Assembly: GCF_030547245.1 (NCBI RefSeq)
Contig: NZ_JAUOQT010000002.1
Coordinates: forward strand, 558,001-622,000
Direction: 5' to 3'
Length of the DNA stretch: 64,000 nt
Source: Oceanihabitans sp. 2_MG-2023
GTDB taxonomy: Bacteria; Bacteroidota; Bacteroidia; Flavobacteriales; Flavobacteriaceae
The notes beneath the pieces are model-generated. The model was not told where the DNA came from. It searched no databases and worked only from the letters and a program-made list of their open reading frames with translations. Positions 40,938 through 62,609 of this stretch are shown one piece after another; position 1 is the stretch's first letter; each line of letters starts with the position of its first letter. Both the position numbers and the translations under genes were made by a program.

Positions 40938-41873
40938 ATGAGAATAGCAGACAAATTCTATACCTTACAACTAGCTACAATTCTATGTGTGGTTCTTTTT
41001 TTTAGTTGTACGAATAATGAAGATGCATCAGATAACGCTGAAATAATAGATGAAATTATTGATAATCAAGAAGAAGAAGAAGAAGAAACTATAGAATATG
41101 CAGATATTGATTTCTCTAATTGGAAAGTTACACTACCTGTAGATAATGATAATAATGGTGGTCCAGATGAATATCAACCTTTGCAATTAATAAATCTTGG
41201 ATACCAAACATTAGAACCTGTACAACCATATATGTATGATGACATAACAGATGGTTCCTTAGTCTTCTATACTTTTCCAGATGTTTCCACCACAAATAGC
41301 TCGTACTCTAGAACAGAATTGAGAGAACTAATAAACCCAAGTAATTCTAGAGAAAACTGGACATTATTAGAAGGTGGTGAAATGACAGGTCGCTTAAAAG
41401 TAGATGCTGTTTCTGCAAATGCTACATCTAGTGATGACTATCATAAAGTAATCGTTATGCAAATTCATGGTGTCCTTTCTCAAGAAGATATGGATATACA
41501 TGGTTTTTCATCTAACAATGGCCCTCCACTTATAAAAATCTATTGGAAAGATGGTTATATATGGTCGCATAAAAAATCACTTATAGACGAATCTACAGAT
41601 GGAGATGATTTACTTGAAACCTCTAGCAATACCTGGACAGACATTAAATTAAACTTAGGATATGTTGGGTTTGAAGCTTTTGATTTTAGAATTACTGCAA
41701 GCGATGCTAAAATAGAAGTACAATTAAATAACAATGCAGCACACGTATATCAAGACGTAAGTCTAAACAAATGGCCTTATGAAAACTACTTTAAGGCAGG
41801 GAATTATTTAAACTCAACACATGCAGACGCTTTTTCTTATATAAAATACTATAATTTATCTATTACTCACTAA
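40938..41873 (+). CDS. PL7 alginate lyase, surface lipoprotein (copy 1)
   Basis: A 311-residue lipoprotein (FFSC, then TNNEDASDNAE and a run of six Glu: surface type). The PL7 jelly roll has the three hallmark blocks: SYSRTELREL near residue 124, VMQIHG near 175 (QIH, the form linked with guluronate-containing substrates in this family) and YFKAGNYLNS near 286. It cleaves alginate by beta-elimination. It has its own promoter and operator upstream and a terminator downstream, so it is a single-gene unit of the alginate regulon. Confidence 0.92.
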   Translation: MRIADKFYTLQLATILCVVLFFSCTNNEDASDNAEIIDEIIDNQEEEEEETIEYADIDFSNWKVTLPVDNDNNGGPDEYQPLQLINLGYQTLEPVQPYMYDDITDGSLVFYTFPDVSTTNSSYSRTELRELINPSNSRENWTLLEGGEMTGRLKVDAVSANATSSDDYHKVIVMQIHGVLSQEDMDIHGFSSNNGPPLIKIYWKDGYIWSHKKSLIDESTDGDDLLETSSNTWTDIKLNLGYVGFEAFDFRITASDAKIEVQLNNNAAHVYQDVSLNKWPYENYFKAGNYLNSTHADAFSYIKYYNLSITH

Positions 41874-41898
41874 AGAATGATTTGAATGTAGTCAAATC

Positions 41899-41930
41899 AA
41901 AAAGCCTTTTGTATTTTTAAAAAGGCTTTT
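41899..41930 (+). terminator. Terminator after PL7 copy 1
   Basis: AAAAAGCCTTTT pairs with AAAAAGGCTTTT, with a T-rich tail. The next gene starts 33 bases later with no obvious operator, so that operon may depend on read-through or another promoter. Confidence 0.82.
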
Positions 41931-41963
41931 ATATTTTAAAGACATCTAACACATTACAATGCA

Positions 41964-44270
41964 ATGAAAAAAATAATATTAAGTTTCAATTTATGCTTCT
42001 TACTAATGACCTGTAGTAATCTAGAAGTTACCAATTCTACTAGAGTCTCCAATATCGACGAACTAAATACTGCCATTAAAAATAGTGAAGCAGGAGACAA
42101 CATTGTTTTAACAAATGGTATTTGGAAAGATGTTGAAATAAAATTTACAGGAAAAGGAACAAAAGAAAATCCTATTACTTTATCGGCCGAAACAGCTGGA
42201 AAAGTTTTTATAGAAGGGGTTTCTAATCTAGCTATTAGTGGAGATTATTTAGAAGTAAGTGGTTTGTTTTTTAGAAATGGACATGCTCCATCTCAAAATG
42301 TAATAGCATTTAGAACGAGTCCTAAAGAGGTAGCAAACCATTGTAAAGTTACAAATTGTGTGATTCTAGACTTTAATAATCTAGAACGTGATCAAGATAA
42401 TCTTTGGGTGCAACTTTACGGAAAGCATAACGAGTTAAGTAACTGCTATATTGCTGGAAAAACAAATGGAGGACCAACATTGAGAGTGGATTTAAAAGGA
42501 AATCAAAGTATTAGAAACTATCATAAAATCATAAATAACCATTTTGGACCAAGGCCAAGAAAAGGTGGGGCAAGAGGTGAAACTATTCAGTTAGGAAGTA
42601 GCTTTACATCCATGTCACCAAGTAATACTTTAATTGCAAATAATTTATTTGAAGAGTGTAATGGTGAAGTTGAAATAATTTCAAGTAAAACCAATTTTAA
42701 TATTATTAAAAACAATATTTTTTATAAAAGTGAAGGATCTGTAGTAACGCGTCACGGAAATTATGTTGCAGTAGATGGAAACTATTTTATTGGCGATGGT
42801 AAGAATGATCAATTTGGAGGAATTAGAATTATTAACACAGGACATTGGATTACAAACAACTTGTTTTATAAAATAAAAGGTAAGAATTTTAGAAGTCCAA
42901 TTGCAATTATGAACGGAATTCCAAAGTCACCATTAAACAGATATAACCAAGTTACAGATGTTGTAGTTGCATACAATACCTTTGTTGATTCAGACTCTCC
43001 ATGGCAATTTGGTGTTGGACAAAACCTTTCGCAAGCAGATGTTTTGCCTAAATCAGAAATTAGATCTGCTAGAGCATTAAGAACAGAAGTTGTAAATAAT
43101 ATAATATATAATTCTGTTGGTAATGCTAATCCAATTATAGAACATGATAAAGCTGATGGCGTAACCTTTGCAAGTAACATTATCGATAATAATGGTGTCG
43201 AAATTGAAAACAATCATGGTTTAATTTCTAAAGAACTAACGTTAACAGATATAGGAACAGCACTTGCTGTACCAACATCTGGTTTTGATGATATTGAAAT
43301 TTATAATGGATTTGATTTTGAAACAATTACAGAGGATTTAATAGGAAACTCCAGAAGTAAATCAAATCAAATTGGCGCAATTTTAAATACAGGAAATATT
43401 AGTTTAGATCTTTTGGATAAAACTAAATATGGTGCAGATTGGTTTTCAAACGAAGTGGAAGCAAAAGACCCAAAAACACATACAGTAGCTAATTCTGCGG
43501 AATTAAATACCAAACTAAAAGAAGCAGAAAGTGGAGATATTATTGATTTAACAGAAGGAGTATTTCAAGTTTCAAATTCTTTAGTAATAAACAAAACAAT
43601 TACTATTCAATCTAAAAATAAAGCTGAAATTGTTTATTCAGGAGCAGCAGAAACTCCAGCTTTTTCATTGCAACCTTACGGAAAGCTAACCTTAAAAGGA
43701 ATTAAACTAAAAGGAAACAATACAAACTATGCTTTTGCAAGTTTAAAAAAGAACATGTCTAATCACTTTGGGTTAGATGTTCTAGATTCAGAAATCAGTA
43801 ATTTCAACTATGCGTTAAGAGTATATAAACAATCTTTTTCTGAAGAAATTGCCTTTAAAAACACCTCGATTTCTAATTGCGAAAACGGAATTGAATTATC
43901 TGAAGAAACAAACGATAGAGGTGATTACAACACAGAGTACTTAACCATCGATAATTGTCAATTTACGAATGTAAAACAAAATGTTATAGATTATTATAGA
44001 GGCGGATACGATGAGTCTACCATTGGCGGAAACCTTTTAGTTACAAATAGCACATTTACCAATTGTGGTGCAAAAGAGAAAAACAAAAGGCTATTAAATC
44101 ATAATGGTATTGTAAATGTAAATATTACGAAGAACACATTTAAAAATAATAAAGTACAATTTGTATCTATTCTTTGGGGAGCCAAAAATAATGTAGCATC
44201 AGAAAACAACTTAATGGATTCTGGACAAATAAAAACCGAAGAAAATTTAGTAATGAAACTCATGTATTAA
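41964..44270 (+). CDS. PL6 alginate lyase (copy 1), two beta-helix domains
   Basis: A 768-residue lipoprotein (LMTC, then SNLEVTNS). The N-terminal parallel beta-helix is the PL6 (chondroitinase-B-like) catalytic domain: NNHFGPRPRKGGARGETIQL, then EIISSKTN near residue 241 and VTRHGNY near 262, which carry the Lys and Arg catalytic residues of the family. A second beta-helix from about residue 510 (AELNTKLKEAESGDIIDL) lacks these residues. Paralogue of the second PL6 gene. It starts a six-gene run with gaps of 1, 12, 11, 32 and 67 bases. Confidence 0.92.
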   Translation: MKKIILSFNLCFLLMTCSNLEVTNSTRVSNIDELNTAIKNSEAGDNIVLTNGIWKDVEIKFTGKGTKENPITLSAETAGKVFIEGVSNLAISGDYLEVSGLFFRNGHAPSQNVIAFRTSPKEVANHCKVTNCVILDFNNLERDQDNLWVQLYGKHNELSNCYIAGKTNGGPTLRVDLKGNQSIRNYHKIINNHFGPRPRKGGARGETIQLGSSFTSMSPSNTLIANNLFEECNGEVEIISSKTNFNIIKNNIFYKSEGSVVTRHGNYVAVDGNYFIGDGKNDQFGGIRIINTGHWITNNLFYKIKGKNFRSPIAIMNGIPKSPLNRYNQVTDVVVAYNTFVDSDSPWQFGVGQNLSQADVLPKSEIRSARALRTEVVNNIIYNSVGNANPIIEHDKADGVTFASNIIDNNGVEIENNHGLISKELTLTDIGTALAVPTSGFDDIEIYNGFDFETITEDLIGNSRSKSNQIGAILNTGNISLDLLDKTKYGADWFSNEVEAKDPKTHTVANSAELNTKLKEAESGDIIDLTEGVFQVSNSLVINKTITIQSKNKAEIVYSGAAETPAFSLQPYGKLTLKGIKLKGNNTNYAFASLKKNMSNHFGLDVLDSEISNFNYALRVYKQSFSEEIAFKNTSISNCENGIELSEETNDRGDYNTEYLTIDNCQFTNVKQNVIDYYRGGYDESTIGGNLLVTNSTFTNCGAKEKNKRLLNHNGIVNVNITKNTFKNNKVQFVSILWGAKNNVASENNLMDSGQIKTEENLVMKLMY

Positions 44271-44271
44271 T

Positions 44272-46494
44272 ATGAAAAATCTAACGCTATTTTTTTTGTT
44301 TTTTCTTGTCTGGTTTCAAAATGTTGATGCACAAACAATACCATCTAATGAAATAATAGATAATGATAAATTATTTTCTTATTTAACTAAAACAGTCCAA
44401 AATAGTTTAATATCTAATGGAGCAACTTCTCAAGTAGATCTAGCGAAATACTTTCGCACAAAATTTAGTGAACGTTATTTCTATAATTGGAAAAATAACA
44501 ATAAACGATTCCAAGAATACACAAAGCTATACCCAGAATCTAAAGCAAAACATACAGCAAGAGCACTAGATCACTTGGCAAAATTTCCAGCAGAAGCACA
44601 ATGGAAACTGCCTTTTAATTACCAAAACGGAGAACCTGTAAACGCTTATGCTTTACGTCATTTAGCAAGGCAACATAAAATGATAGATATCGGTTATTAT
44701 TATTTCTATCAAAACAAAGACGAACAGTATTTAGATTATTTTACCAATCAAATGGCATCTTTAAATACTGCTTTAGCCAATAATAAATATGAAAGTATTG
44801 AAGATGGAAATGGCGTTTATGAAGCCTTTCGTTCTGGATACCGCATTATCAATTGGTTACAATTACATAATTTGTTTTTAGGAGAATCTGGTTACTCAGA
44901 CAAAGAACAATTAGTTACTATTGCTACATTTTTACAACACGCTCAACATTTGTACCAACGCAACCAAGAATTCAAATCTGGTAATCACCAAACACGAGGC
45001 TTATGTGCTTTAGCAATGCTTTCTATTATACTGCAAGATTTTGAAGGAACAGAGCTTTGGTACAACCATGCCATGAAACTTTTAGGAGAACATTTAGATA
45101 AAGAAATAAACCCTGATGGCTTTCAATTTGAACGCACAATTCACTACCACATGAGTGATATTGGCACCTACTTTTATGTATATCAATTAGCTAAAAAAAG
45201 CAACACTCCTATCCTTCCTGTTTGGAAAAACAAATTAGAGTCTCTTTTCACAACACTTGTAAAAATTGCTTATCCAGATAAATCTGCACCTGTTTTATCT
45301 GATGATACAGACACACCTTGGGCAGAAAAAAATGATATTTCTGGAGCTATGACTTTAGGATATCTACTATTTGAAGATCCCGAAATAGGATATTTTGCAA
45401 ATAATAAATTAAGCACAAAATTCTATTGGAATGCAAGTGCTTCACAATTAGATAAATTAAAAAACATACAAGCTGTTCCGCCAAAAGAATTATCCTACGT
45501 TTTTCCAGACACAGGCTATTATATTATGCGTGAAGGTTGGAACAAAAAAGACAACATGTTAGTAATTTCGGCAGATGTAGACGAACTAAAACCAGACCAT
45601 CAACATGGTGACATATTAGGCATACAAGCAATGGCTAATGGTCAAGTAATTTTACCAAATTACCAAGTACGCTATTCCCTTAAAGATTTAGAGTTGTTTA
45701 AAAACTCTATGACTAAAAATGTTGCTTTAGTAGATAATGAATTACAAGGAAAACAATACACAAGTAACAAAGGAGGAAGTGGTTTTGGTAAATTTAAAAA
45801 CCTTCCAGAAACAAAAAACATCACGTTTCTAACTAATGGAAATTTAGAGGTTTTCGCAGGAAGTCATAACGGGTTTGAAAATATTGGTGTACAATATAGT
45901 AGACAGGTTATTTCTATAGATAATAGTTTTTGGATTGTAAAAGATAATTTCACCTCTAAAACAAATCACGAATACAAACAAGTTTGGCAAGGTCATTATA
46001 GTTTAGAAAATGGTTCAGACTTATTACGCGCTTCTTTTATTAACGGTTCTGGTTTAGATATTTTTCAATTGCACAAAACAGACAATGTTTTAACCGATGG
46101 AGCAAGAGGAAAACAATGGGCTGTAGTTTCAAAAAAAGACACGAAAAACTTTAACTTTATAACCGTTTTATTTCCTTTTGAAACCTATGATAAACGAATA
46201 GACGAAACTTCAAAAGAAAAAGAATTTAATGGCTGGAAACTAAACGCTTCCAAATGGAAAACAAACAATCCTGAAGCTATTTCTTTAACAAAAGAAGATG
46301 TTTCCATATTCTTTTCGGTGAAAACATTAAAATTTGAAAACACCAAAATCACTTTTGAAAAAGAGGTGGATGTTCTTGTTAATTTTAAAAATGAAGACTT
46401 AATACTTCAACTACTTAACAAAAAAGAAGGAAAAGCGATTATAGAAAAAAATGGAGTTACTCAAACTATTAATTGCGCTTTCGAGAATAATTAA
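44272..46494 (+). CDS. Heparinase II/III-fold polysaccharide lyase, subfamily uncertain
   Basis: A 740-residue exported protein with a signal peptide ending NVDAQ and no lipobox. The order is an (alpha/alpha) toroid (HLAKFPAEAQWKLPFNYQNG, EFKSGNHQTRGLCALAMLS, FQFERTIHYHMSDIG) followed by an anti-parallel beta-sheet domain (DTGYYIMREGWN, DELKPDHQHGDILGIQAMA). His/Tyr residues in NHQ, HYH and HQHGD are in the right places for a lyase of this fold. It lacks PL17-type blocks seen in the other toroid enzyme here, so it may belong to PL39, PL15, PL12 or an unassigned group. Alginate or its oligomers are the likely substrate from context only. Confidence 0.72.
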   Translation: MKNLTLFFLFFLVWFQNVDAQTIPSNEIIDNDKLFSYLTKTVQNSLISNGATSQVDLAKYFRTKFSERYFYNWKNNNKRFQEYTKLYPESKAKHTARALDHLAKFPAEAQWKLPFNYQNGEPVNAYALRHLARQHKMIDIGYYYFYQNKDEQYLDYFTNQMASLNTALANNKYESIEDGNGVYEAFRSGYRIINWLQLHNLFLGESGYSDKEQLVTIATFLQHAQHLYQRNQEFKSGNHQTRGLCALAMLSIILQDFEGTELWYNHAMKLLGEHLDKEINPDGFQFERTIHYHMSDIGTYFYVYQLAKKSNTPILPVWKNKLESLFTTLVKIAYPDKSAPVLSDDTDTPWAEKNDISGAMTLGYLLFEDPEIGYFANNKLSTKFYWNASASQLDKLKNIQAVPPKELSYVFPDTGYYIMREGWNKKDNMLVISADVDELKPDHQHGDILGIQAMANGQVILPNYQVRYSLKDLELFKNSMTKNVALVDNELQGKQYTSNKGGSGFGKFKNLPETKNITFLTNGNLEVFAGSHNGFENIGVQYSRQVISIDNSFWIVKDNFTSKTNHEYKQVWQGHYSLENGSDLLRASFINGSGLDIFQLHKTDNVLTDGARGKQWAVVSKKDTKNFNFITVLFPFETYDKRIDETSKEKEFNGWKLNASKWKTNNPEAISLTKEDVSIFFSVKTLKFENTKITFEKEVDVLVNFKNEDLILQLLNKKEGKAIIEKNGVTQTINCAFENN

Positions 46495-46506
46495 AATAAA
46501 TAGAAA

Positions 46507-47532
46507 ATGAAAAAAGCAATATTTACATTAGTTACGTTTTTAATAATAGTTGCTTGTAAAAACAATTCTAAAACAACTACAAACACAGATGCTTCTGGAA
46601 AAACGGAAGATGCTACAAAATACCCAAGCGATGTGATTCCTTTTATGGAAAAATGGAAAATCCTTTTAGGAGATGGCACATATAAAGACGATTTAGTAAA
46701 TTATAAAAAAGACGATTTCTTTTATGTTGAAAATGACGGAGAAACAAACTGGGTAGTTTACAAAACACCTAATTCTGGTATTACCTCAAGAACTTCAAGC
46801 AATACAAGAACCGAACTAGGTGAAAAAGCACATTGGATTCCTGAAACTGGAGGAAAACTAACTGGCACACTAAAAGTACAACATGTTTCTACAACAGGAA
46901 ATGCAAATATACCTTCCTCATATGCTGTAGTTATCGGACAAATTCATAGTGACGAAGGTCATGAAAACGAACCATTAAAAATATACTACAAGAAATTCCC
47001 AGGTCATACTAAAGGATCTGTATTTTGGAACTATGAAATAAATACTGTTGGCGAGGATAATTCTGGAAGATGGGATTACTCAACAGCGGTTTGGGGTTAC
47101 GACTTTTCCGTTGTTGGCAAAGATGCATCTACAGCGCCCGAAGAACCAAAAGATGGTATTGAATTGGGTGAAGAATTTAGCTACGAAGTAAATGTTTATA
47201 AAGGTGTTATGTATCTAACATTTTCAAGTAAAGGTCACAAAACGATAACGTTCACCAAAAACTTGCTAAAATCAGATTTCTCAACAAAAGAAGATATTCC
47301 GCAACAAATTATAGACGTATATGCATCCAGAAGAACAGTGAATGTAGAACGTGAAATTGCCTATGCAGGAGAAATAAATTACTTTAAACAAGGCGCTTAT
47401 AACCAAGCTAATAGCAAAACAGGATCTAAAACATTTGATGGCAATATAGAAAAACAATATGCAAATGGAGCTTATACCGAAGTTTGGTTTAAAAAAGCTA
47501 CTGTTGGCAAAGGAACAGCACCTAACCATTAA
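46507..47532 (+). CDS. PL7 alginate lyase, lipoprotein (copy 2)
   Basis: A 341-residue lipoprotein (VAC, then KNNSKTTT: no acidic signal, probably periplasmic). PL7 blocks: SNTRTELGEKA near residue 100, VIGQIHSDEG near 144, and YFKQGAYNQ near 297. It is more distant from the other two PL7 proteins, with a longer insert (TVGEDNSGRWDYSTAVWGYD), and may act on shorter or different alginate fragments. It lies between the heparinase-fold lyase and the kinase-dehydrogenase fusion. Confidence 0.88.
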   Translation: MKKAIFTLVTFLIIVACKNNSKTTTNTDASGKTEDATKYPSDVIPFMEKWKILLGDGTYKDDLVNYKKDDFFYVENDGETNWVVYKTPNSGITSRTSSNTRTELGEKAHWIPETGGKLTGTLKVQHVSTTGNANIPSSYAVVIGQIHSDEGHENEPLKIYYKKFPGHTKGSVFWNYEINTVGEDNSGRWDYSTAVWGYDFSVVGKDASTAPEEPKDGIELGEEFSYEVNVYKGVMYLTFSSKGHKTITFTKNLLKSDFSTKEDIPQQIIDVYASRRTVNVEREIAYAGEINYFKQGAYNQANSKTGSKTFDGNIEKQYANGAYTEVWFKKATVGKGTAPNH

Positions 47533-47543: not shown

Positions 47544-49427
47544 TTGAATAAAGTAATATTTGTAATGGGAGTTTCTGGTTGTGGAAAAAGCACAATAGGA
47601 AAATTACTTGCCCGAGAATTAGACATTCCTTTTTTTGATGGTGATGATTTCCACCCTGAAAGTAATATTAAAAAAATGTCTAACGGTCAAGCTTTAAATG
47701 ATGAAGACAGACAAGGTTGGTTACAAACATTAAACAATTTAGCCATAAAGCAACTCACAAAAAACAGTTGTGTTATTGTTTGCTCTGCTTTAAAACAAAA
47801 GTATCGTGAAACGTTAAGTCATACTATTAAAGAGAAAACAAAATGGGTACATCTATCTGGTTCTTTCGAACAGGTTTTAAAAAGATTAAATAACAGAGAG
47901 GGACATTTCATGCCTGCCGAGTTACTAAAGTCACAATTTGAAACCTTAGAAACACCAGATGAAGCCATGAAAATAGACATTAAGATAACACCAGAAAATA
48001 TTATTAAAAAAATAAAACAAGAATTAATGAAAACCTCAGAATTTGGATTATTTGGTTTAGGCGTTATGGGAAAAAGCCTATGTAGAAATTTAGCCAATAA
48101 CGGATTTAAAATTTCTATGTTTAACAGACATGTTAATGATGTTGAGGTAGATGTTGCTAAAAACTTTAAAGCAGAATATCCCGAATTAGCACAAGCAGAA
48201 GCTTACGATGATATTGCTGCTTTTGTTAATTCATTGCAACAACCAAGGCGCATTATGTTAATGGTTAATGCTGGAAAAACAATAGATTATGTTATTGAAG
48301 ATTTACTGCCTCATCTGTCAAAAAATGACATCATTATTGATGGTGGAAATTCTAATTATAAAAAAACGAAACAACGTAACGAATATTTAAAAACTAAAGG
48401 AATTCACTTTATTGGAACTGGAGTTTCTGGAGGTGAAGAAGGTGCTTTAAAAGGACCATCCATAATGCCCAGCGGAGATAAAGAAGCCTACAAAAAAATA
48501 GCTCCTTTTTTAGAAACTATATCTGCAAAAGACAAAAACGGCCTACCTTGTTGTACCTACGTTGGACCAGAAGGAAGCGGGCAATTTATTAAAATGGTGC
48601 ATAATGGCGTGGAGTATGTAGAAATGCAATTACTAGCAGAAGTTGCAACGATTTTAGAATCTTTAGGTCAAAATCCAGATGCTATTGCTAACACTTTAAA
48701 TAACTGGAAAGCAACTGCAGATAGTTATTTGTTAGAAATTACAACTGCAATTTTTCAAAAAAAAGAAGGAGACGATTGGTTAGTAAATAAAATATTAGAT
48801 AAAGCTGGTAATAAAGGCACAGGAAACTGGACAACCATAGCTTCAGCCGAACTTGGTGTCCCTAGCACATTAATCGCTTCTGCCCTATTTTCAAGATATA
48901 TTTCGTTTTATAAAGAAGAGAGATTACAATTAAACAAACTTTTTGAAAAAGGAAATACTTCGCAATTAAACCTAACAACTAACGAAATTTTAGAGGCTTA
49001 CCAGTTTGCAAGAATTATTAATCACTATCAAGGTTTTAAATTAATTGCTGAAGCTTCAAACAAAATGGATTGGGATCTAAACCTAAGTGAAATAGCAAGA
49101 ATATGGACTAATGGCTGTATAATTAGATCTACTTTAATGGAAGAATTGGTTGTAGTGTTTAAACAGACATCAAATATTTTAACCAATACAGAATTAATAA
49201 ACACGGTTATTAAATACAAACCAGCTGCAAAAAAAGTAGTGTCACAATGCATACTTAATGATGTTGCAACACCAGCTCTGGCAGAAGCTATCCAATTTTT
49301 AAACGGAATTACAACAGCATATACCTCTGCAAATATAATACAAGCACAACGTGATTACTTTGGAGCACACACCTATCAAAGATTAGATGATGCATCTGGA
49401 AAGAGCCATCACACGAACTGGAATTAA
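47544..49427 (+). CDS. Gluconokinase :: 6-phosphogluconate dehydrogenase fusion
   Basis: One 627-residue frame with two complete enzymes. Residues 1-160 are a GntK-type P-loop kinase: GVSGCGKST, DGDDFHP, MSNGQALNDEDRQGWL, VCSALKQKYRE. Residues ~165-627 are 6-phosphogluconate dehydrogenase: LGVMGKSLCRNLA, DGGNSNYKKT, GTGVSGGEEGALKGPSIMP, KMVHNGVEY, GNKGTGNWT and C-terminal RDYFGAHTYQRLD. Together they would turn gluconate plus ATP into 6-phosphogluconate and then ribulose-5-phosphate, CO2 and NAD(P)H. The start is TTG; the first ATG lies within the first beta strand of the P-loop fold and would cut it. No frameshift is needed. Cytoplasmic. Confidence 0.92.
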   Translation: MNKVIFVMGVSGCGKSTIGKLLARELDIPFFDGDDFHPESNIKKMSNGQALNDEDRQGWLQTLNNLAIKQLTKNSCVIVCSALKQKYRETLSHTIKEKTKWVHLSGSFEQVLKRLNNREGHFMPAELLKSQFETLETPDEAMKIDIKITPENIIKKIKQELMKTSEFGLFGLGVMGKSLCRNLANNGFKISMFNRHVNDVEVDVAKNFKAEYPELAQAEAYDDIAAFVNSLQQPRRIMLMVNAGKTIDYVIEDLLPHLSKNDIIIDGGNSNYKKTKQRNEYLKTKGIHFIGTGVSGGEEGALKGPSIMPSGDKEAYKKIAPFLETISAKDKNGLPCCTYVGPEGSGQFIKMVHNGVEYVEMQLLAEVATILESLGQNPDAIANTLNNWKATADSYLLEITTAIFQKKEGDDWLVNKILDKAGNKGTGNWTTIASAELGVPSTLIASALFSRYISFYKEERLQLNKLFEKGNTSQLNLTTNEILEAYQFARIINHYQGFKLIAEASNKMDWDLNLSEIARIWTNGCIIRSTLMEELVVVFKQTSNILTNTELINTVIKYKPAAKKVVSQCILNDVATPALAEAIQFLNGITTAYTSANIIQAQRDYFGAHTYQRLDDASGKSHHTNWN

Positions 49428-49459: not shown

Positions 49460-50734
49460 ATGGATGCAACAACACCTAATAAATCATTTCTTAAAAAAAT
49501 TATTGCTATTATATTAGGATTTGGTCCTGGAATTTTTGCTATTGGTTATACCATTGGTACAGGTAGTGTAACTTCTATGATTGTAGCAGGAAGCAAGTTT
49601 AACATGCAATTACTCTGGGTACTATTACTAAGTTGTATCTTCTCTGGTGTATTGATGTTTGCTTATGGAAATTACGGATTGATAACTGGTGAAACTGCAC
49701 TCTTCGGATTTAAAAAACACTTAAAATACGGTAAAGCTTTAGCTATATTAATTATTATAGGAATCACATTTGGACAATGGAATTCTTTAATGGGAATTTT
49801 AGGGATATCTTCTAATATCATTTACGAAATTTTGGCTGTTAATTTTGATGGACTAAGTGATTTTAAATATGAAACTGTATTAATAACCGCTATCATCATC
49901 ATCATAACATTTTACTTATTAATGCTAGTTGGTAAGTACACTTTTTTTGAAAAAATACTAGTCATTTTTGTAACCTTAATGGGATTCTCCTTTATACTAT
50001 CCCTATGTTTTGTACAACCACTTCCTATAGATGTAGTTAAAGGATTAATACCAACAATTCCAGATGTACCAGGAGGCAAAATGTTAGTTGCCGCATTTGT
50101 TGGTACTACCATGGCTTCGGCTACATTTTTATCTAGACCTTTATTTGTAAAAGGAAAAGGATGGACTATTAAAAACTTAGAACAACAAAAAAAGGATTCT
50201 ATAACAGCTGCAGTTTTAATCTTTTTAATTAGTGCAACTATTATGGCTGTGTCTGCTGGAGCTTTATTTTATGAAGGAAAAGAAGTAACACAAGTTTTAG
50301 ATATGGCAAATACATTAGAACCTGTTGCTGGTAAATGGGCCGTTACTATTTTCTTTTTTGGTGCTTTAAGTGCTGGTTTATCTTCTATTTTCCCTTGTCT
50401 ATTAATTGCTCCTTTATTACTTGCCGATTACCAATCTGGCGAATTAGATACAAACTCTAAACAGTTTAGAATTATAACCTTTATAGCTTGCCTAGTTGCT
50501 TTAATAGGCCCTGCTTTTGGCGCAAATCCTATAGAAGTTCAAATTCTTTCCCAAGTATTTAATGTATTTATTTTACCTGCAGTAGTATTAGGAATTATTC
50601 TAATGATAAATAATAAGAAAGTAATGAAAGATTACAAAACCAATCTTGGAGTAAACATTGGGCTATTTGCCGCTTTATTCTTTTCGTTAGTAATTTCATA
50701 CAACGGGATTCTTGCACTAACAGAATATTTTTAA
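49460..50734 (+). CDS. NRAMP-fold transporter lacking metal-binding residues
   Basis: A 424-residue inner-membrane protein with about 11 TM helices. It aligns without gaps to MntH-type NRAMP at TM1 (GPGIFAIGYTIGTGSV against GPAFIAAIGYIDPGNF) and QLLWV, and at TM6 (GTTMASATFL against GATIMPHVIYL). Thus DPGN is GTGS at residues 33-36 and MPH is ASA at 219-221: the Asp, Asn and Met that hold the divalent metal are gone. It therefore should not carry Mn2+ or Fe2+ in the usual way. Located between gntK::gnd and the SDR gene in an alginate operon, it may carry a sugar acid or uronate. The function is inferred only. Confidence 0.82.
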   Translation: MDATTPNKSFLKKIIAIILGFGPGIFAIGYTIGTGSVTSMIVAGSKFNMQLLWVLLLSCIFSGVLMFAYGNYGLITGETALFGFKKHLKYGKALAILIIIGITFGQWNSLMGILGISSNIIYEILAVNFDGLSDFKYETVLITAIIIIITFYLLMLVGKYTFFEKILVIFVTLMGFSFILSLCFVQPLPIDVVKGLIPTIPDVPGGKMLVAAFVGTTMASATFLSRPLFVKGKGWTIKNLEQQKKDSITAAVLIFLISATIMAVSAGALFYEGKEVTQVLDMANTLEPVAGKWAVTIFFFGALSAGLSSIFPCLLIAPLLLADYQSGELDTNSKQFRIITFIACLVALIGPAFGANPIEVQILSQVFNVFILPAVVLGIILMINNKKVMKDYKTNLGVNIGLFAALFFSLVISYNGILALTEYF

Positions 50735-50801: not shown

Positions 50802-51569
50802 ATGAATACGAATAAATTAACAGGAAAAAACGTTCTAATAACCGCTGGAGCACAAGGGATTGGAGAATCTATAACAAAACACTTTATTGATAATGGAGCC
50901 AATGTGGCAATTCATTATTTTTCTAGTGCAGATACAGCAAACCAATTGACAGAATATGCAACTAGCAAAGGGCAAAAAGCAATAGCTATAAGTGGCGATC
51001 TAACCAAAGAGGCAGATGCTAATGCAATGTTAAAAACAACAGTAGATGCACTTGGAAGTTTAGATATACTAATCAATAATGCAGGTTCCCTTGTTGCACG
51101 TAGAATGCTAGGCGATATAGAAACAGAATTCTGGCACAAAGTAATGGACATTAACCTAACCTCCATGATGTTTGTTACAAGAGCAGCTGCGCCTTATTTA
51201 GCAAAAAACGAAAACAGTAGTATTGTTAATTTAGCATCACTAGCAGGTCGTAAAGGTGGACACCCAGGATCTCTAGTATATGCAACAAGTAAAGGAGCTA
51301 TCTTAACATTTACAAGAGCACTTTCCACAGAATTAGGAGATCAAGGTATTCGAGTTAATGCAGTTTCTCCTGGTCTTATTCTTGGAACTTCTTTTCATAA
51401 CACACATACTACAAAAGAATCGGCAGCCGAAACTACAGCTGGTATCCCAATTCAACGAGCAGGTAATGCTGCAGATGTTGCTAGAGCTGTTTTATTTCTA
51501 GCATCTGAATATGACGGTTTTATTACTGGAGCTACACTTGACATCAACGGAGGTGTTTACAACATGTAG
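50802..51569 (+). CDS. SDR oxidoreductase, DehR-like (4-deoxy-5-hexoseulose uronate reductase)
   Basis: A 255-residue classical short-chain dehydrogenase. Cofactor loop TAGAQGIG at 14-21, NNAG near 92, catalytic Ser146, Tyr160 and Lys164 (YATSK), and the GG ending ITGATLDINGG. SDRs in alginate loci reduce the lyase end product DEH to 2-keto-3-deoxygluconate with NAD(P)H. No acidic residue is evident after the second strand (AIHYFSSADTA), consistent with possible NADPH use. It ends the PL6-led operon; a terminator follows. Confidence 0.85.
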   Translation: MNTNKLTGKNVLITAGAQGIGESITKHFIDNGANVAIHYFSSADTANQLTEYATSKGQKAIAISGDLTKEADANAMLKTTVDALGSLDILINNAGSLVARRMLGDIETEFWHKVMDINLTSMMFVTRAAAPYLAKNENSSIVNLASLAGRKGGHPGSLVYATSKGAILTFTRALSTELGDQGIRVNAVSPGLILGTSFHNTHTTKESAAETTAGIPIQRAGNAADVARAVLFLASEYDGFITGATLDINGGVYNM

Positions 51570-51582
51570 TTGTTTATTACAG

Positions 51583-51728: not shown

Positions 51729-51734
51729 TTGTTT

Positions 51735-54077
51735 ATGACAAACCAACTAAAGCATTTTACTACTATAATTTTTCTTTTTTTACTAGTATTTTCATGTAAT
51801 GAAAGTGAAAATAATGCTTTATTAGTAAATGATTTATCCGAATTTAACAAGGCTGTAAAAAACGCAAATCCAGGAGATATTATCACACTAGCTAACGGTG
51901 TTTGGAAAGATGCAGAATTGGTATTTGAAGGAAAAGGGACAGCAGAAGATCCTATTACACTTAACGTTGAAGAAAAAGGAAAAGTAACTTTAGAAGGAAA
52001 TTCAAACTTGCAATTAGCTGGTGAACATTTAATTGTTGAAGGTCTAGTTTTTAAAAATGGTTTCACTCCTACTAACGCAGTAATTTCTTTCAGAAAAAAC
52101 AGAGAAGAAATAGCAAACAATAGTCGTTTAACCGAATGTGTTATAGACAACTACAATAATCCAGAGCGTCAAGTACAAGATTATTGGATTACTATTTACG
52201 GAAAAAATAACCGTATAGACCACAACCATATTGTTGGTAAAAAGAACCTTGGTGTAACTATGATTGTTGGATTAGACACCAAATCGAGTAGAGCAAACAA
52301 CCATAAAATTGATCACAACTATTTTGGCCCAAGACCAACTTACGGAAATAATGGAGGAGAAACTTTACGTATTGGGACAAGTCATCATGCACTAGAAAAC
52401 TCAAACACTTTAGTAGCGTCTAATTATTTTGACAGAACAAATGGCGAACATGAAATTATTTCAAACAAAGCTTGTCAAAACACCTTTAAATACAATACTT
52501 TTTTTGAGTGTACTGGTACATTAACTATGCGTCATGGAAATGAAACCTTAGTTGATGGAAATATGTTTATTGGAAACAACAAACCAAGTACAGGAGGTGT
52601 TCGTATTATTAACGAAACACAAACGGTTATTAATAATTATCATATTGGTTTAACCGGTTACCGTTTTAGAGGTGCATTTGTAATGATGAATGGCGTACCA
52701 AATTCACCACCAAATCGTTATGTTCCTGTTATAAATTCAAAAGCAAACAATAATATATTTATTGATTGCAATCATATTCTTTTTGGTGCTGGTAATGATG
52801 CCGAAAGAAGTCAAGCTCCAAGAACTTCAGAATTTTCAGGTAATATTATTTACAATAAAAACGAAAGTGACATTTTTACTATCGATGCCGATATTAGCGG
52901 CATTACATTTAAGAATAATCTTCTTAGCAAAGACGGCAAAACTTCTATTAATGAAGGTTTTGAAAATGCCGAGATCTCCTTAGTAAAAAATAAACAAGGA
53001 TACTTCATCCCGAAGTCAGATAAAATTAAAAGGGCAATCAACATCAGTCCAAAAATTGCTACAAAAGAAAATACTGGTACAACTTGGTATTCCAAAAAAG
53101 ACACAAACATTGCTTTTAATTCAGGAAAAACAACAAAAGTTGCTCCAGGAATTAATACATTATATGAAGCAACAAAAAATTCAGAAGCAGGAGATATTTT
53201 AGTATTAGAATCGAGCAAAAATTATTTAATAACTAAAGCAGCAAAAATTAATCACCCATTAACTATAAAATCATCAGGAAAAGAAAAGCCTGTTATTTTA
53301 TTTGAACGTATGATGGCTTTAGAAATTCAAAATGGCGGAAGTTTGTCACTAGAAAACATCACTTTTGATGGTACTAAATCTCCAGACTACGCAGGAAATT
53401 CTGTAATTAGTACTAGTAAAAATTCCATGCTAGATAATTACAAACTATTTATTGACAATTGCGAATTTAAAGATATGGTTGTTAACCATTCGTTTGATGT
53501 ACTAAGAGTCTCTAAAGGCACTTTCGCAGATACTATTAGTATTCAAAATTCTAAATTCAAAAACATCTCTGGTCACATTGCTGCATTAGATAAAGAAACG
53601 GATGACATTGGCGCATATAATGTAGAATACTTTATTATGAAAAACAATACAGTAACCGATTTACAAGGTGCTGCTTTACGTTTATATAGAGGCGGAAAAG
53701 ACGAAAGTACTTTCGGTCCATTTTTAGAAGTAGACCACAACGTATTTAATAATGTAGGTTTTGGCAAAAAGAATAAATATAAATCTGCTATGTCTTTATA
53801 TGGCGTTCAAGTTAACAATATTGAAAACAACAACTTTAACAATACAGCTGGTTTAAACATGCACTTAGTAGTAGGTGAACCAATTGTAAATGTATTAAAT
53901 AACAACTATTACAAATCTGGAAAAATTGAAGTTACCGGAAATCAAAAACATACTATAGAAAACCTATATAACATAGCTCCAACTTTTAAAAAAGGAACCT
54001 TTGAACTATCAAAGGATTCTTCATTAAGAGGAAAAGGAACTGACCATAAAAACATAGGACCTATTTCTAATAACTAA
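51735..54077 (+). CDS. PL6 alginate lyase (copy 2), two beta-helix domains
   Basis: A 780-residue lipoprotein (VFSC, then NESENNAL: acidic, likely surface). The PL6 catalytic beta-helix has DHNYFGPRPTYGNNGGETLR, EIISNKACQN and MRHGNETLVDG with the catalytic Lys and Arg. A second beta-helix starts near residue 470. It shares the late block ALRLYRGGKDESTFG with YYRGGYDESTIGG in copy 1, so the two are full-length paralogues. I use the ATG rather than an upstream TTG that overlaps the operator. PL17 follows after 2 bases. Confidence 0.93.
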   Translation: MTNQLKHFTTIIFLFLLVFSCNESENNALLVNDLSEFNKAVKNANPGDIITLANGVWKDAELVFEGKGTAEDPITLNVEEKGKVTLEGNSNLQLAGEHLIVEGLVFKNGFTPTNAVISFRKNREEIANNSRLTECVIDNYNNPERQVQDYWITIYGKNNRIDHNHIVGKKNLGVTMIVGLDTKSSRANNHKIDHNYFGPRPTYGNNGGETLRIGTSHHALENSNTLVASNYFDRTNGEHEIISNKACQNTFKYNTFFECTGTLTMRHGNETLVDGNMFIGNNKPSTGGVRIINETQTVINNYHIGLTGYRFRGAFVMMNGVPNSPPNRYVPVINSKANNNIFIDCNHILFGAGNDAERSQAPRTSEFSGNIIYNKNESDIFTIDADISGITFKNNLLSKDGKTSINEGFENAEISLVKNKQGYFIPKSDKIKRAINISPKIATKENTGTTWYSKKDTNIAFNSGKTTKVAPGINTLYEATKNSEAGDILVLESSKNYLITKAAKINHPLTIKSSGKEKPVILFERMMALEIQNGGSLSLENITFDGTKSPDYAGNSVISTSKNSMLDNYKLFIDNCEFKDMVVNHSFDVLRVSKGTFADTISIQNSKFKNISGHIAALDKETDDIGAYNVEYFIMKNNTVTDLQGAALRLYRGGKDESTFGPFLEVDHNVFNNVGFGKKNKYKSAMSLYGVQVNNIENNNFNNTAGLNMHLVVGEPIVNVLNNNYYKSGKIEVTGNQKHTIENLYNIAPTFKKGTFELSKDSSLRGKGTDHKNIGPISNN

Positions 54078-54079
54078 AC

Positions 54080-56359
54080 ATGACACAATCTAAAAATTTC
54101 ATATTTAAATTTGCTTTAGTCGCAATTGTATTCACTGTATTTTCTTGTAAAAAAGAAAATACAGCTGGTACAAATTCTAAATCAGAAACATCCATTTCAC
54201 AAGAGCATCCAAAATTAATTCTTACCGCTCAGGGTGTAAAAAACATTAGAGAACAATTAGGGTCCATTCCAATTTTCGATAATTCACTTCAAGCAGTTAA
54301 AGAAGAAATTGATGCAGAAATTAAAGCAGGTATAGAAGTTCCAATTCCTAAAGATTATTCCGGTGGTTATACACACGTAAGACATAAACGCAATTGGGTA
54401 GTACTACAAAAAGCTGGTGTTTTATATCAAATATTAGACGATGAAAAATATGCGCAATATGTTAAAGACATGTTGATGCAATACGAAAAACTATACAAAA
54501 CACTTCCACTACACCCAAAAACTAGATCTTATGCTAGAGGGAAATTATTCTGGCAATGCTTAAACGATTCTAACTGGTTGGTTTATGTAAGTCAAGCGTA
54601 CGATTGCATCTACAATTATTTAACCGAAGAAGAACGCAACAAATTAGAAAACAATTTATTTAAGCCATTTGCAGATCATATTTCTATAGATAGCCCGCAA
54701 TTTTACCAAAGAGTTCACAACCACAGTACTTGGGGTAATGCAGCTGTTGGTATGATTGGTTTGGTAATGAATGACCAAGAATTAATAGATCGTGCTTTAT
54801 ACGGAATTAAAGGTGTCGATTTAGACACAAAAGCTAAAGATGATGATGGTGGATTTTTAAATAAAGATGGAAAAGCTGGCTTTTTAGCAAATATTGAAGA
54901 ACCTTTTTCTCCAGATGGCTATTATAATGAAGGGCCATATTACCAGCGTTATGCTATGTATCCTTTTTTAATTTTTGCAGAGGGTCTTCATAATGTAAAG
55001 CCAGAATTGAAGATTTTTGAATATAAAGAAGGAGTACTACTAAAATCTATAAATGCACTTTTAAATTTATCGGATGCAGATGGGGAATTTTTTCCACTTA
55101 ACGATGGACAAAAAGGTATGTCATATTATAATAGTGCTTTAGTTACTGCAGTAGATATTTCGTATCATTTTGGAAAACAAGATCCTGGTTTACTATCTAT
55201 TGCAAAAGAACAAAATACAGTCCTATTAGATGATTCTGGTTTGGCAGTAGCACTGGGTATAAAAAATGGCAAAGAAAAACCGTTTCTTAAAAAATCCATT
55301 AACTTATCCGACGGCCCAGAAGGAACACAAGGCGGTGTTGGTATTTTAAGAAACGAAGATATCGAACTTGTTTTTAAATATGCTGCACAAGGATCCAGCC
55401 ATGGGCACTATGATAAGTTATCCTATTCGTTATATGAAAAAGGAGAAGAAGTGATTCAAGATTATGGTCTAGCACGATTTGTAAATATTGAACAAAAAGG
55501 TGGAGGAAATTATCTTAAAGAAAATAAAACTTGGGCAAAACAAACTATTGCACATAATACTGTTACGCAAAATGAAACCTCTCATTTTACAGGAAAATAT
55601 GATATTGGAAGTTTACATCATTCCGATTTACATTATTTCTCTTCAGAAAATGAAAACGTACAAATCGTGAGCGCTAAAGAAACAAACGCATATCCAGGAA
55701 CCGAAATGCTTCGCACAATGGCTATCATTAAAGAAAAAGATTTCGAAAAACCATTTATGCTAGATATCATGAAGATAACTTCAGCTTCAGCGAACCAATA
55801 CGATTTTCCGTATTACTATTTCGGACAAGTTTTACAAACAAATTTCGATTTCCAAACATCCGAAACATTAAAACCACTAGGAACTAAAAATGGGTATCAA
55901 CATTTATTTGTCGAAGCTACTGCAAAAGCAAATACAGATAATTCTAAATTCTCATGGCTAAATAAAAATAAATTCTATACCTTAACTACTGTAACTAATG
56001 CCAATGATGCATTATTGTTTACCAGAATTGGTGCAAACGACCCAGAATTTAATCTAAGAAGAGACCCTGCAGTAATTTTAAGAAGAAAAAATACAAAAAA
56101 TACCACTTTTGTTTCCATAATAGAAACACATGGTAGTTATAGTCCAATTTCTGAATCTGCTTTAAATTCAAATAGTACTATTGCAGCTTTACAAGTAATT
56201 TTAGACACAACAGATTATACTGCAATAGCGATAACAACTATAAATAATAATACCAAAATATTTATTACAGTAAATACAAACACTTCAAAAGAGACAAAAC
56301 ATAGTATAAAAATTAACAATAAGAATTATGAGTGGTCTGGTTCTTATTATTTCAAATAA
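54080..56359 (+). CDS. PL17 oligoalginate lyase, lipoprotein
   Basis: A 759-residue lipoprotein (VFSC, then KKENTAGT: probably periplasmic). PL17 features: HPKLILTAQGVKNIRE at the start of the toroid, HNHSTWGNAAVGMIG near residue 211, EGPYYQRYAMYPFL near 288 and GSSHGHYDKLSYSLYEKG near 438, giving the Asn, His and Tyr residues used in catalysis, then a beta-sheet domain. PL17 exolytic lyases release unsaturated monouronate that becomes DEH. It is in one operon with PL6 copy 2 and kdgF. Confidence 0.94.
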   Translation: MTQSKNFIFKFALVAIVFTVFSCKKENTAGTNSKSETSISQEHPKLILTAQGVKNIREQLGSIPIFDNSLQAVKEEIDAEIKAGIEVPIPKDYSGGYTHVRHKRNWVVLQKAGVLYQILDDEKYAQYVKDMLMQYEKLYKTLPLHPKTRSYARGKLFWQCLNDSNWLVYVSQAYDCIYNYLTEEERNKLENNLFKPFADHISIDSPQFYQRVHNHSTWGNAAVGMIGLVMNDQELIDRALYGIKGVDLDTKAKDDDGGFLNKDGKAGFLANIEEPFSPDGYYNEGPYYQRYAMYPFLIFAEGLHNVKPELKIFEYKEGVLLKSINALLNLSDADGEFFPLNDGQKGMSYYNSALVTAVDISYHFGKQDPGLLSIAKEQNTVLLDDSGLAVALGIKNGKEKPFLKKSINLSDGPEGTQGGVGILRNEDIELVFKYAAQGSSHGHYDKLSYSLYEKGEEVIQDYGLARFVNIEQKGGGNYLKENKTWAKQTIAHNTVTQNETSHFTGKYDIGSLHHSDLHYFSSENENVQIVSAKETNAYPGTEMLRTMAIIKEKDFEKPFMLDIMKITSASANQYDFPYYYFGQVLQTNFDFQTSETLKPLGTKNGYQHLFVEATAKANTDNSKFSWLNKNKFYTLTTVTNANDALLFTRIGANDPEFNLRRDPAVILRRKNTKNTTFVSIIETHGSYSPISESALNSNSTIAALQVILDTTDYTAIAITTINNNTKIFITVNTNTSKETKHSIKINNKNYEWSGSYYFK

Positions 56360-56382
56360 ATAAACCAACTTAAATTAAAATT

Positions 56383-56754
56383 ATGAAAAGATTTAGTGAA
56401 AAATATGTTATCACAAAAAACATGGACTGGGAAGTTCTTGGAGGAGGAGTATCTAGAAAATTTTTAGGTTACGATAACCAAATCATGATGGTAAGAGTCA
56501 AATTTGATAAAGGAGCATTAGGCGCACCGCATCAACATTTTCATACACAAGCTACCTATTGTGTTTCTGGAAAATTTGAATTTGAAATTGATGGTGTAAA
56601 GCAAATTGTAGAAGCTGGAGATGGCGTTTATATTGAACCAAATTTATTACATAGCGCAGTTTGTCTAGAAGAAGGGGAACTAATTGATACATTTAGCCCA
56701 GTAAGAGAAGATTTCTTAAGTGGTGATTCTGTTTCTTATTTTGGAGATAAATAG
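56383..56754 (+). CDS. kdgF: KdgF-type cupin, unsaturated uronate to DEH conversion
   Basis: A 123-residue single cupin domain. The metal site is His50, His52, Gln56 and His90 (APHQHFHTQATY; PNLLHSAV). KdgF catalyses ring opening of the 4,5-unsaturated uronic acids made by alginate or pectin lyases to linear 5-keto (DEH) products. It follows PL17, which makes its substrate. Cytoplasmic or periplasmic location cannot be told; no signal peptide is present. Confidence 0.9.
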   Translation: MKRFSEKYVITKNMDWEVLGGGVSRKFLGYDNQIMMVRVKFDKGALGAPHQHFHTQATYCVSGKFEFEIDGVKQIVEAGDGVYIEPNLLHSAVCLEEGELIDTFSPVREDFLSGDSVSYFGDK

Positions 56755-57126: not shown

Positions 57127-60100
57127 ATGAATTTAAAAGCTAAATCGGCATTATTTGCATTACTCTTCATGTGCATTTCTGCCTTTGCCCAAGAAAACGT
57201 AACAGTAAAAGGGCTAGTGGTAGATGCAAATGACAATATGCCATTACCAAGTGTAAATGTAATTATTGTTGGTACTAGTACAGGAACTAGTACAGATTTT
57301 GATGGTAACTACCAATTACAAGTAAAAAACGGAGATGTAATTCAATTCTCTTACATTGGTTACCTATCGCAAACAGTGATTGTTAATAACCAAAGCTCTA
57401 TCGATATTTCTTTAGCAGCAGATGCTAATAGCTTAGATGAAGTAGTAGTAGTTGGTTATGGTACACAAAAGAAAAGTCACTTGACTGGTGCTATATCGAA
57501 AGTAAAAAATGAAACACTGGATCAAATTGCTGTTTCAAGAGTAGATGACGCTTTAGTAGGTCAAGTATCTGGTGTAAATATTCAAGCAACAAATGCAGAA
57601 GCTGGTGGAGCACCTACAATTACCATTAGAGGTGTTGGTTCTATAACCGCAGACTCTGGTCCTGCTGTAGTAGTAGATGGTATAGTTGTAAGTTCTGATT
57701 TTCTTGGAAATTTAGACATGAATGATGTAGAATCTTTTGAAGTATTAAAAGATGCAGCATCTGCAGCTATTTATGGTAGTGAAGGTTCTAATGGTGTAAT
57801 TATGATTACTACTAAAAGTGGTAAATCTGGAAAAACTAAATTTAGTTACCAAACGTACACTGGATTTAAAGAAGCTCATGGAAGTGATGATTATAGAAAA
57901 AGTGTAGCAGATTGGGCTAAAAAAGAGCAAGCTGCAACTGGAACACTTTCTGGTGAAACATTATACGCGCAGTTATTAGTTGCAACTACAGGTGTAGACA
58001 GAGATTGGCAAGATGTATTTTTTGATGGAGGTACAGTTACAAGTCACTCTTTTGCAGCTAGAGGTGGTTCTGAAAAAACAAAATTTAGTACATCTTTAAG
58101 ATATCTTCATGATGAAGGTGTTGTTATAACAGATGATTATAAATTAATGACTGGGAAAATAAAAATTGACACTGAATTAAGTGACAAACTAAAATTTGGA
58201 ATTAGTGCAACTCCTTCTTATACAAAACAAAGAAGATTACCTACTTCAATTCATAACCCAACACGTCAATCGCCATGGTTGCCAATTTACCATACAGAAG
58301 AAACACTTCAGTTTGTTAATACTTCGGCTTACCCAGATGTACAAGCAGGTGATTATTTCTACGAAAATCATTTAATGAATTTAGATTTAGATAATGATGG
58401 TAATACAGAAAGACCACGTACTTCAGGAGATTCAAACCCTTATGCACAATACGTAGAAAGAGAACATTATGAATACAATACAAAACTATATGGATCTACT
58501 TATTTAAGTTATGACATTATTGAAGGGCTTACAGCAAAAACTTCTTTAGGTTTAACTTTAGACCAAAGAAAAAGAGAAAGATGGGATGGAACAAAATATC
58601 ATGCATCTGGGAATAGTAGAGCATTATATAACTTACAAAACAGATTTCGTACTAGATTAATTTCAGATAACACATTAAATTATTCTACTACAATAGGTGA
58701 AAACCATGAACTTAATATATTAGCAGGTGCAACAATACAACAAAGAAAAAGTAGCACTAGTGATGTAACTGGTACAGGGTATACTAGTGATAGACTTAAA
58801 AATTTACAAGGTGCAACAAGTATTTCTGAATTTGAAGAAATCAACACCGTACTACAAAAAGTAGGTTACTTTGGTAGAGTTACTTATGCGTATGCAGACA
58901 AATATTTATTATCTGCTTCTTTTAGACGTGATGGTAGTTCTGTTTTTGGAATTGATACTAAATGGGGTAATTTCCCTGCAGCTTCTATAGGTTGGAATGC
59001 TCATAACGAAGATTTTTTAAGTGATAGTGATGTTGTAAGCAAACTAAAATTTAGAGTTAGTTATGGTCTTACAGGTTCTGAAAACTTTAATGTTGGTGAC
59101 GAAGTGGTAAATGCATGGCCTTACTTAGCTTTATTACAAAACTCTAATGCGGTTAGTGATGGCAGTATTTCTCCTGGTGTATCTCCACTTAATATTGCTA
59201 ATGCATTATTACAATGGGAAGCTTCTGAAGAGTTTAACCCTGCTGTAGATTTTGGATTATTCAACAATAAAATTTCTGGATCGGTAGATTATTACCAAAG
59301 AACTAGTGATGAATTACTATTAGAAAACCCTGTTTCTTATGTAACTGGATTTTCTGGAGGTATAGTAAACTTAGGAAAAGTACAAAACAGAGGTTGGGAA
59401 TTTGAATTAAGAACTAAAAATATTAGTAGTGAGAAATTTTCTTGGAACTCTACTATAATTGCTTCTACGAATAAAAACGAACTACTTAGTTTTGGGGATT
59501 CAAACAATGCATTAATTGAAGATACCTATGGTAGAAATTCACAATGGATTAATAGAATTGGAGAGCCAATTTCTTCTTTCTGGGGTTATGTTGTAGACGA
59601 AGAAGCGTATAACGAAACAGAATTTAGAACTAATTATGTAGACAACCCTTGGAACAGAATTAATGGTCAAGCTGATGATACTATCGTAAAAGATTTAAAT
59701 GGTGATGGTATTATTACTGATGAGGATAAAACTATTTTAGGTGATCCTTATCCAGACTTAGTATATAGTTTTACTAATGAATTTAAATATGGTGACTTTG
59801 ATTTTTCTTTCATGTTACAAGGTAGCTTAGGTGCACAAGTAAATAACATTGGAGATCAATACTTCTATAACTGGTTTGGTAATAGAACTAGAGCTGGTGG
59901 AGAAGCACAAGCAGTTTCAGATGGTGTAGTACCTCATGAATCTTTTATTCAAGAAAAAGTTTTAACTAGTGAAGTAATTGCAAGTGCAGACTACTTTTCA
60001 TTACGTAATGTAAGCCTTGGGTATAATTTCCCAGATGATTTAACATCAAAATTAGGTTTATCAGGACTTAGACTTTATGCAACTGGTCAGAATTTAATTT

Positions 60101-60234: not shown

Positions 60235-60252
60235 TTATAAACACATCAAATT

Positions 60253-61701: not shown

Positions 61702-61719
61702 TACTTAAAAAATTAAACT

Positions 61720-62592: not shown

Positions 62593-62609
62593 ATCTATAA
62601 ATTAAATAA

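Follow-up and report, generated by a model that had tools for sequence, protein, structure and literature searches.

The gene considered here lies in a window of 64,000 nucleotides (the whole stretch of DNA analysed) from Oceanihabitans sp. 2_MG-2023, within a run of genes at 40938-56754 that holds it together with alginate lyase genes and in which gaps are throughout no longer than 159 nt (Table 1). The open reading frame was confirmed as first described, with an ATG start, and its product passes the curated profile cut-off for the NRAMP family (PF01566, TC 2.A.55), with an E-value of 5.2e-64 and 217 bits (cut-off 29.8) over profile positions 1-356 of 357; its NCBIfam name is 'Nramp family divalent metal transporter' (NF037982, 81.9 bits, cut-off 50).

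Table 1. Features of the NRAMP gene, its product and the surrounding alginate locus (window positions). The CAZy names of the lyases at 40938..47532 are those that we take their Pfam matches to imply.
Feature	Position	Strand	Basis or remark
Alginate lyase genes PL7, PL6, PL17-like, PL7 (upstream, same gene run)	40938..47532	+	Pfam matches
gntK::gnd fusion (gluconokinase + decarboxylating 6-phosphogluconate dehydrogenase)	47544..49427	+	32 nt upstream of NRAMP gene
NRAMP-fold transporter, GTGS clade, 424 aa	49460..50734	+	ORF, Pfam, alignment, tree
TM1 Gly33-Thr34-Gly35-Ser36, replacing canonical DPGN	49556..49567	+	Invariant in 41/41 clade members
TM6 Ala219-Ser220-Ala221, replacing canonical MPH	50114..50122	+	Alignment
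Arg226, at canonical TM6 His place	50135..50137	+	Clade 29/29, other aligned NRAMPs 0/48; 41/41 with added loci
Asp323, near TM8, Gly in E. coli MntH	50426..50428	+	Invariant in 41/41 clade members
SDR oxidoreductase, substrate unsettled	50802..51569	+	67 nt downstream of NRAMP gene
PL6, PL17 (oligoalginate-lyase-like), KdgF-like cupin (downstream, same gene run)	51729..56754	+	Profile matches
SusC, SusD, PKD protein, PL7 of alginate locus	57127..63506	+	Profile matches
GntR regulator gene start, opening GntR-MFS-DehR-KdgK-KdgA cluster	63651..64000	+	Contig continues past window

The initial annotation placed the NRAMP gene between gntK::gnd and a uronate reductase. Both neighbours are there, but the downstream one is established only as an SDR; it has 38% identity to the SDR encoded alongside KdgK/KdgA in a related locus (L132), a type of protein named DehR here by its context, the counterpart of which in the own genome lies beyond the window. 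The end of the window cuts the locus, and the contig goes on with GntR, MFS, DehR, KdgK and KdgA genes, the MFS gene starting 0.4 kb past the end; its product has 67% identity to the MFS protein of L132, whose best NCBIfam match is to the D-galactonate-transporter subfamily, below cut-off. It had also been argued that the alginate locus encodes no other inner-membrane carrier. This is true only inside the window, and because the contig continues with an MFS gene that is not visible from the window, the argument falls. A separate set of carbohydrate genes is present upstream at 31404-36721 of the window, comprising a GH17 match below cut-off, GH30 and an MFS_2 sugar carrier.

Residue signature of the GTGS clade

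Alignment by phmmer to PDB MntH chains (one of which, 8e6i, is a mutant MntH with Ala for the Met of MPH) places the GTGS segment of the window protein on DPGN and its ASA segment on MPH, as the initial annotation had it, and likewise bears out the retention of framework residues, including GPG, LLWV and AGLSS. The window protein thus has the Pfam family and framework residues in common with the canonical metal-transporting NRAMPs (MntH/SLC11), whereas their DPGN/MPH ligands are absent from it. The canonical TM3 acidic pair and TM6 His pair are also replaced, Arg226 aligning with a His that we take to be H237 of DraNramp, and residues 14-45, which hold TM1, include no charged residue. That every metal ligand had been replaced was a slight overstatement, since 39 of 41 clade members retain the TM10 Gln (Q365 in the window protein), which presumably belongs to the metal site of DraNramp. 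A LeuT-like fold with 11-12 TM helices is predicted by homology only; an AF2 model from 27 close homologues was poor (mean pLDDT 55.7).

The 145 distinct NRAMPs gathered for motif comparison, from which L047 was dropped as short, fall into a canonical DPGN/MPH group, NDAGG/APW, IGPGT/VPYN and GTGS groups and several smaller ones. IGTGS is present in all 80 of those gathered that have at least 80% identity (window protein included), followed in TM6 by MASATF in 49 and MAAATF in 31. In a tree of NRAMP homologues, a check proposed with the initial annotation, 74 rows were kept after thinning at 85% identity, with L002, L138 and the second ORF of L152 excluded; all 29 remaining GTGS proteins group together, set off from the other rows by a single branch with SH-aLRT 100 by a quick method, in a tree for which the tool gave a long-branch warning and the order of the deep groups is not resolved. 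Arg226 separates these clade rows from all other aligned NRAMPs (Table 1). Across the 41 aligned clade members, G33, T34, G35, S36, R226, W235 and D323 are each invariant, and the Ile before GTGS is replaced by Val in five. The window protein, with GTGS in TM1, Arg226 in TM6, W235 and D323, is a member of this clade; invariance of the motif across the clade rules out chance, a frameshift or a sequencing error as its origin. A search for relatives in viral contigs found none.

The best PDB match of the window protein is 7qia, from the NRMT group of magnesium transporters, which are also NRAMP relatives with an altered TM1 and which transport Mg2+ with altered ligands. They differ in that their motifs, which we take to be the NDAGG/APW type, retain an Asp, and they form a separate clade; NDAGG is absent from TM1 of the window protein. 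A Pfam Nramp search of the own genome found no canonical DPGN MntH. Its only other match above the cut-off is non-canonical, a second and very remote homologue with GVSH in TM1 and about 17% identity (L002, at L190:7719-8933 on contig C27).

Neighbourhoods of close and distant relatives

Of 258 relatives in named genomes, the best 80 (82-94% identity) were taken to represent close homologues. In 69 of these 80 loci gntK::gnd is the immediate upstream neighbour of the NRAMP gene and has the same orientation; 73 include an alginate lyase gene in the examined flank, and 61 have an SDR resembling that of the window. Seven loci, some of them on short contigs, have no lyase gene in the examined flank, and five of the seven (L047, L066, L070, L080 and L081) keep the gntK::gnd-NRAMP-SDR unit, with a GntR-like gene between in two. 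gntK::gnd is missing in 10/80, and the NRAMP gene is found without it in seven alginate loci (L028, L034, L061, L062, L065, L073 and L076).

At the genome level, 52 of 299 genomes of the family encode a relative at E<=1e-50. PL7 (PF08787 at E<=1e-15) was found in 36 of the 39 genomes with a member of the clade at or above 56% identity versus 35 of the remaining 260 (Fisher p 3e-23), and in 2/13 genomes that have only 35-43% relatives versus 33 of the 247 in which no relative is encoded (p 0.69). Those 13 genomes show no PL7 link, and the association with alginate is thus confined to one branch. A reading in which the carrier serves alginate only is weakened both by this lack of PL7 enrichment with distant relatives and by the lyase-free loci.

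The concern that GTGS homologues might be scattered without sugar-acid genes is not borne out overall. A gene from a fixed panel of sugar-acid genes lies within five ORFs of the NRAMP gene in 24/39 GTGS loci and in 1/39 loci of other NRAMPs (p 1e-8; L160 and L173 among 41 control loci gave no NRAMP), the panel having been drawn partly from the tested loci, so that L115, L118, L126, L132 and L210 are positive only via their own genes. With such self-only matches dropped, 19/39 GTGS loci are positive (p 3e-6). A panel gene within five ORFs is absent from 15/39, and none was found near the NRAMP gene in L194, L206 or L209.

The contexts themselves are varied and belong to several sugar-acid pathways that are unrelated to one another. 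KdgK-KdgA neighbours are found in L132 and L133, in both of which NRAMP ends the operon, and on the other strand in L207; the order is KdgK-KdgA-NRAMP-GntK-Gnd-GntP in L191 and UxaC-SDR-NRAMP-UxuA in L208. Elsewhere NRAMP is encoded with KduI and a GH88 protein (L210), in a DgoK-aldolase-gluconolactonase context (L115), five ORFs from a glucuronate isomerase (L126), with GntK-Gnd and a zinc dehydrogenase (L192, the genome of which has no PL7), or beside a GH2 protein of beta-glucuronidase type, assigned by family search in L118 and by likeness in L117, L119, L120, L122 and L123. Less clearly related to sugar acids are L198-L201 and L204, with Gfo/Idh-type oxidoreductases, an amidohydrolase and a protein of glucosamine-isomerase/6-phosphogluconolactonase type, assignments that were made by Pfam for L204 and by likeness for the others.

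In E. coli SK1144 (L141:4437-10134) a GTGS-clade NRAMP gene, annotated as a metal transporter, is part of a CoA transferase - enoyl-CoA hydratase - NRAMP - FAD oxidoreductase set beside a LacI-type gene, and the substrate of its product is probably an organic acid; the stretch is matched in 825 of 5426 E. coli genomes, in 545 of them over at least 80% of its length. The NRAMP frame is split in L135 (CP054241.1, 834 kb), with intact copies existing elsewhere; this record is named an E. coli plasmid, carries chromosomal dnaB, alr, tyrB and dusA, and may be a misassembled part of a chromosome. On a Mesobacillus foraminis plasmid (L182:2388-6203), a ligand-less NRAMP relative with VGTAD in TM1 follows CoA-transferase and thiolase genes.

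Occupancy of the gluconate permease slot

The operon slot behind gntK::gnd is shared with GntP/GntT gluconate:H+ symporters (PF02447), from which the window protein differs in family, matching PF01566 only. Occupancy of the slot was compared in 47 genomes, i.e. 45 of 129 with a match spanning GntK and Gnd plus two with separate adjacent genes (G454 and G470), 82 of the 129 being matched by the Gnd part alone and not counted. The next same-strand gene encodes GntP in 21, NRAMP in 14 and neither in 12, adjacency being judged by coordinates from GntP matches listed down to ~1e-100, so that weaker adjacent GntPs may be missed, as in G550, where ORF reading revealed one. By ORF reading of 20 gntK::gnd loci without NRAMP, GntP is next in 15 and not next in five.

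Any GntP (PF02447 at E<=1e-20) is present in 1/14 genomes with NRAMP in the slot versus 33/33 of the others (p 1e-10), or 1/13 versus 32/32 when G454 and G470 are left out and full-length matches alone are used. In 13 of the 14, NRAMP thus follows gntK::gnd and the genome encodes no GntP elsewhere; these include the window's own genome, in which a PF02447 search found none. Likewise, in the clade of at least 80% identity GntP occurs in 1/15 genomes with gntK directly upstream (12 genera; G459, with gntK alone and gnd elsewhere, is included) and in 5/5 without (p 0.0004). The p-values for displacement take no account of common descent: a single ancestral replacement, inherited along with the cassette, could be behind much of the pattern, though it would not account for GntP being lost in one set of genomes and kept in the other. 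A second sampled genome without NRAMP is available for four genera of the set, of which two agree with displacement (G549 versus G337, G311 versus G530) and two are neutral (G327 versus G544, G296 versus G521). Displacement of GntP is the best evidence for a sugar-acid substrate.

The two carriers also coexist. GntP and NRAMP are both present in G327, G470 and G533, in the last two of which GntK-Gnd is beside or near NRAMP (in G533, which has a 57% relative, GntK and Gnd are three and four ORFs away), and GntP is present in all 17 genomes of the clade at 67-76% identity. Gluconate therefore cannot be the general substrate, and the NRAMP of GntP-keeping genomes probably does something else. Of five loci examined in the 67-76% clade, four are KDG operons (L131-L133 and L195), a context that transport of KDG or DEH fits, and L194 has no sugar-acid neighbour.

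In six gntK::gnd loci (L218, L219, L221, L225, L227 and L229) a gluconolactonase-like (SMP-30) gene directly precedes the fusion, which suggests a route from gluconolactone to gluconate.

Substrate, alternatives and precedent

The available evidence makes it fairly probable that the window gene encodes an NRAMP-fold inner-membrane importer that carries sugar acids and not metals, with gluconate as the likeliest substrate in this genome. The carrier would import gluconate, or a close hexonate, for phosphorylation by GntK, and the product would then be decarboxylated by Gnd to ribulose 5-phosphate; Arg226 may bind the carboxylate near the old metal site, and related members may carry other hexonates or hexuronates, e.g. 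KDG, DEH, glucuronate and galactonate. The proposal in the initial annotation that the fold has been repurposed for a sugar acid or uronate is in this way partly supported, with displacement of GntP and the neighbours in favour of a sugar acid and its only-carrier argument failing; it can be sharpened to a protein that occupies the gluconate-permease slot.

It is rather unlikely that the substrate is instead an alginate product (DEH, KDG, or saturated mannuronate or guluronate), with gntK::gnd a passenger or acting on such an acid. The clade of at least 56% identity does track PF08787, NRAMP ends the KdgK-KdgA operons of L132 and L133, and it stays in the seven alginate loci without gntK::gnd; moreover, the five genomes of the at least 80% clade without gntK directly upstream, from the separate 299-genome sample, all have GntP, and the two of them whose loci were examined (L196 and L197, the latter with a 38% GntK-like gene four ORFs off) are alginate loci. 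Against this stand the displacement from the GntP slot, the cassette kept in the five lyase-free loci (some on short contigs), and the MFS gene beside DehR and KdgK, which already offers a route for DEH or oligomers in the own genome.

That the protein is still a divalent-metal transporter with other ligands, meeting a demand of the pathway for metal or handling cations set free from alginate, appears improbable. Its family membership, its likeness to 7qia of the NRMT group and the Mn2+ findings on YcsG described below are in favour, as is the non-canonical nature of L002, which leaves no ordinary MntH for Mn2+ supply in the own genome; however, TM1 is without charge, the protein has lost DPGN, MPH and the acidic pair of TM3, and a metal role predicts neither mutual exclusion with GntP nor the UxaC/UxuA, KduI and DgoK contexts. 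Co-transport of a metal-sugar-acid complex, or export of a sugar acid, rather than import of the free acid, we regard as very improbable: alginate fragments and gluconate do chelate divalent ions, and other importers (MFS, SSF and GntP) coexist with NRAMP in many loci, but the missing GntP-type carrier in 13/14 NRAMP-slot genomes, in which the GntP family only was counted, favours import of a catabolic substrate.

An NRAMP carrier for an organic acid has a precedent in PxpT of Corynebacterium glutamicum and YcsG of Bacillus subtilis (TC 2.A.55), NRAMP-family proteins encoded with enzymes of organic-acid catabolism; PxpT, 50% identical to YcsG, is reported to be required if C. glutamicum is to grow on 5-oxoproline, and the authors leave metal transport possible (PMC13274462). 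An organic substrate for an NRAMP protein is thus already in print, and the suggestion that an organic-acid NRAMP would be a new function for the superfamily was too strong. YcsG has also been reported as an Mn2+ importer: cell Mn rose when it was overexpressed, and combined loss of mntH, mntA and ycsG was achieved only in cells supplied with ycsG at an ectopic site (PMC10448178); therefore loss of the canonical ligands alone does not prove loss of metal transport.

The substrate 5-oxoproline sets PxpT/YcsG apart from the carrier proposed here. 5-Oxoprolinase genes of the pxpA, pxpC and long OPLAH types, recognised by sequence patterns, lie within four ORFs of IGPGT NRAMPs (L142-L178) in 20/25 loci and near GTGS NRAMPs in 0/39, and a PxpT-like role for the GTGS clade was rejected on these neighbours. 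The NRAMPs beside 5-oxoprolinase genes, with which PxpT/YcsG were compared by description, have IGPGT, mostly VPYN and no Arg at the place of Arg226, and fall in another part of the tree; IGPGT/VPYN motifs are absent from the window protein. NRAMPs of the IGPGT/VPYN type are also found beside annotated hydantoinase/oxoprolinase genes in haloarchaea (L136 and L139).

In the literature on alginate use, the legend to a figure (S3) on Alteromonas alginolytic systems gives one gene the label 'Nramp, metal-ion transporter' (PMC6431674). The inner-membrane routes given for Vibrio in the accessible text are MFS, SSS and TTT, NRAMP not being in that text (PMC13390454), and a term search did not find the word 'metal' in the searchable text of two papers on flavobacterial alginate systems (PMC8072126 and PMC8073546). 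Among the matches listed in open-licence literature on NRAMP with alginate, uronate, glucuronate or gluconate, no assignment of an NRAMP protein to a sugar acid was found.

We lean slightly towards a wider form of the sugar-acid proposal, in which the GTGS clade in its entirety, marine Flavobacteriia through to E. coli, would comprise NRAMP-fold carriers of organic acids, mainly C6 sugar acids, the metal site having become a carboxylate site via Arg226, with GntP displaced in gluconate operons and uronate, galactonate and KDG operons also filled. The narrower reading, of the window protein as a sugar-acid importer, is supported by the organic-acid precedent of PxpT (PMC13274462) and of the IGPGT NRAMPs, the other large group without the ligands, beside 5-oxoprolinase genes.

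NRAMP is a textbook family of metal transporters, and a branch that carries sugar acids would change the annotation of a gene in the alginate loci of many marine bacteria. If the proposal is correct, it would supply a missing importer for gluconate or uronate and would allow direct comparison of one fold switching from metal to carboxylate. If it holds for the clade, many proteins now named 'Nramp family divalent metal transporter' would be misnamed.
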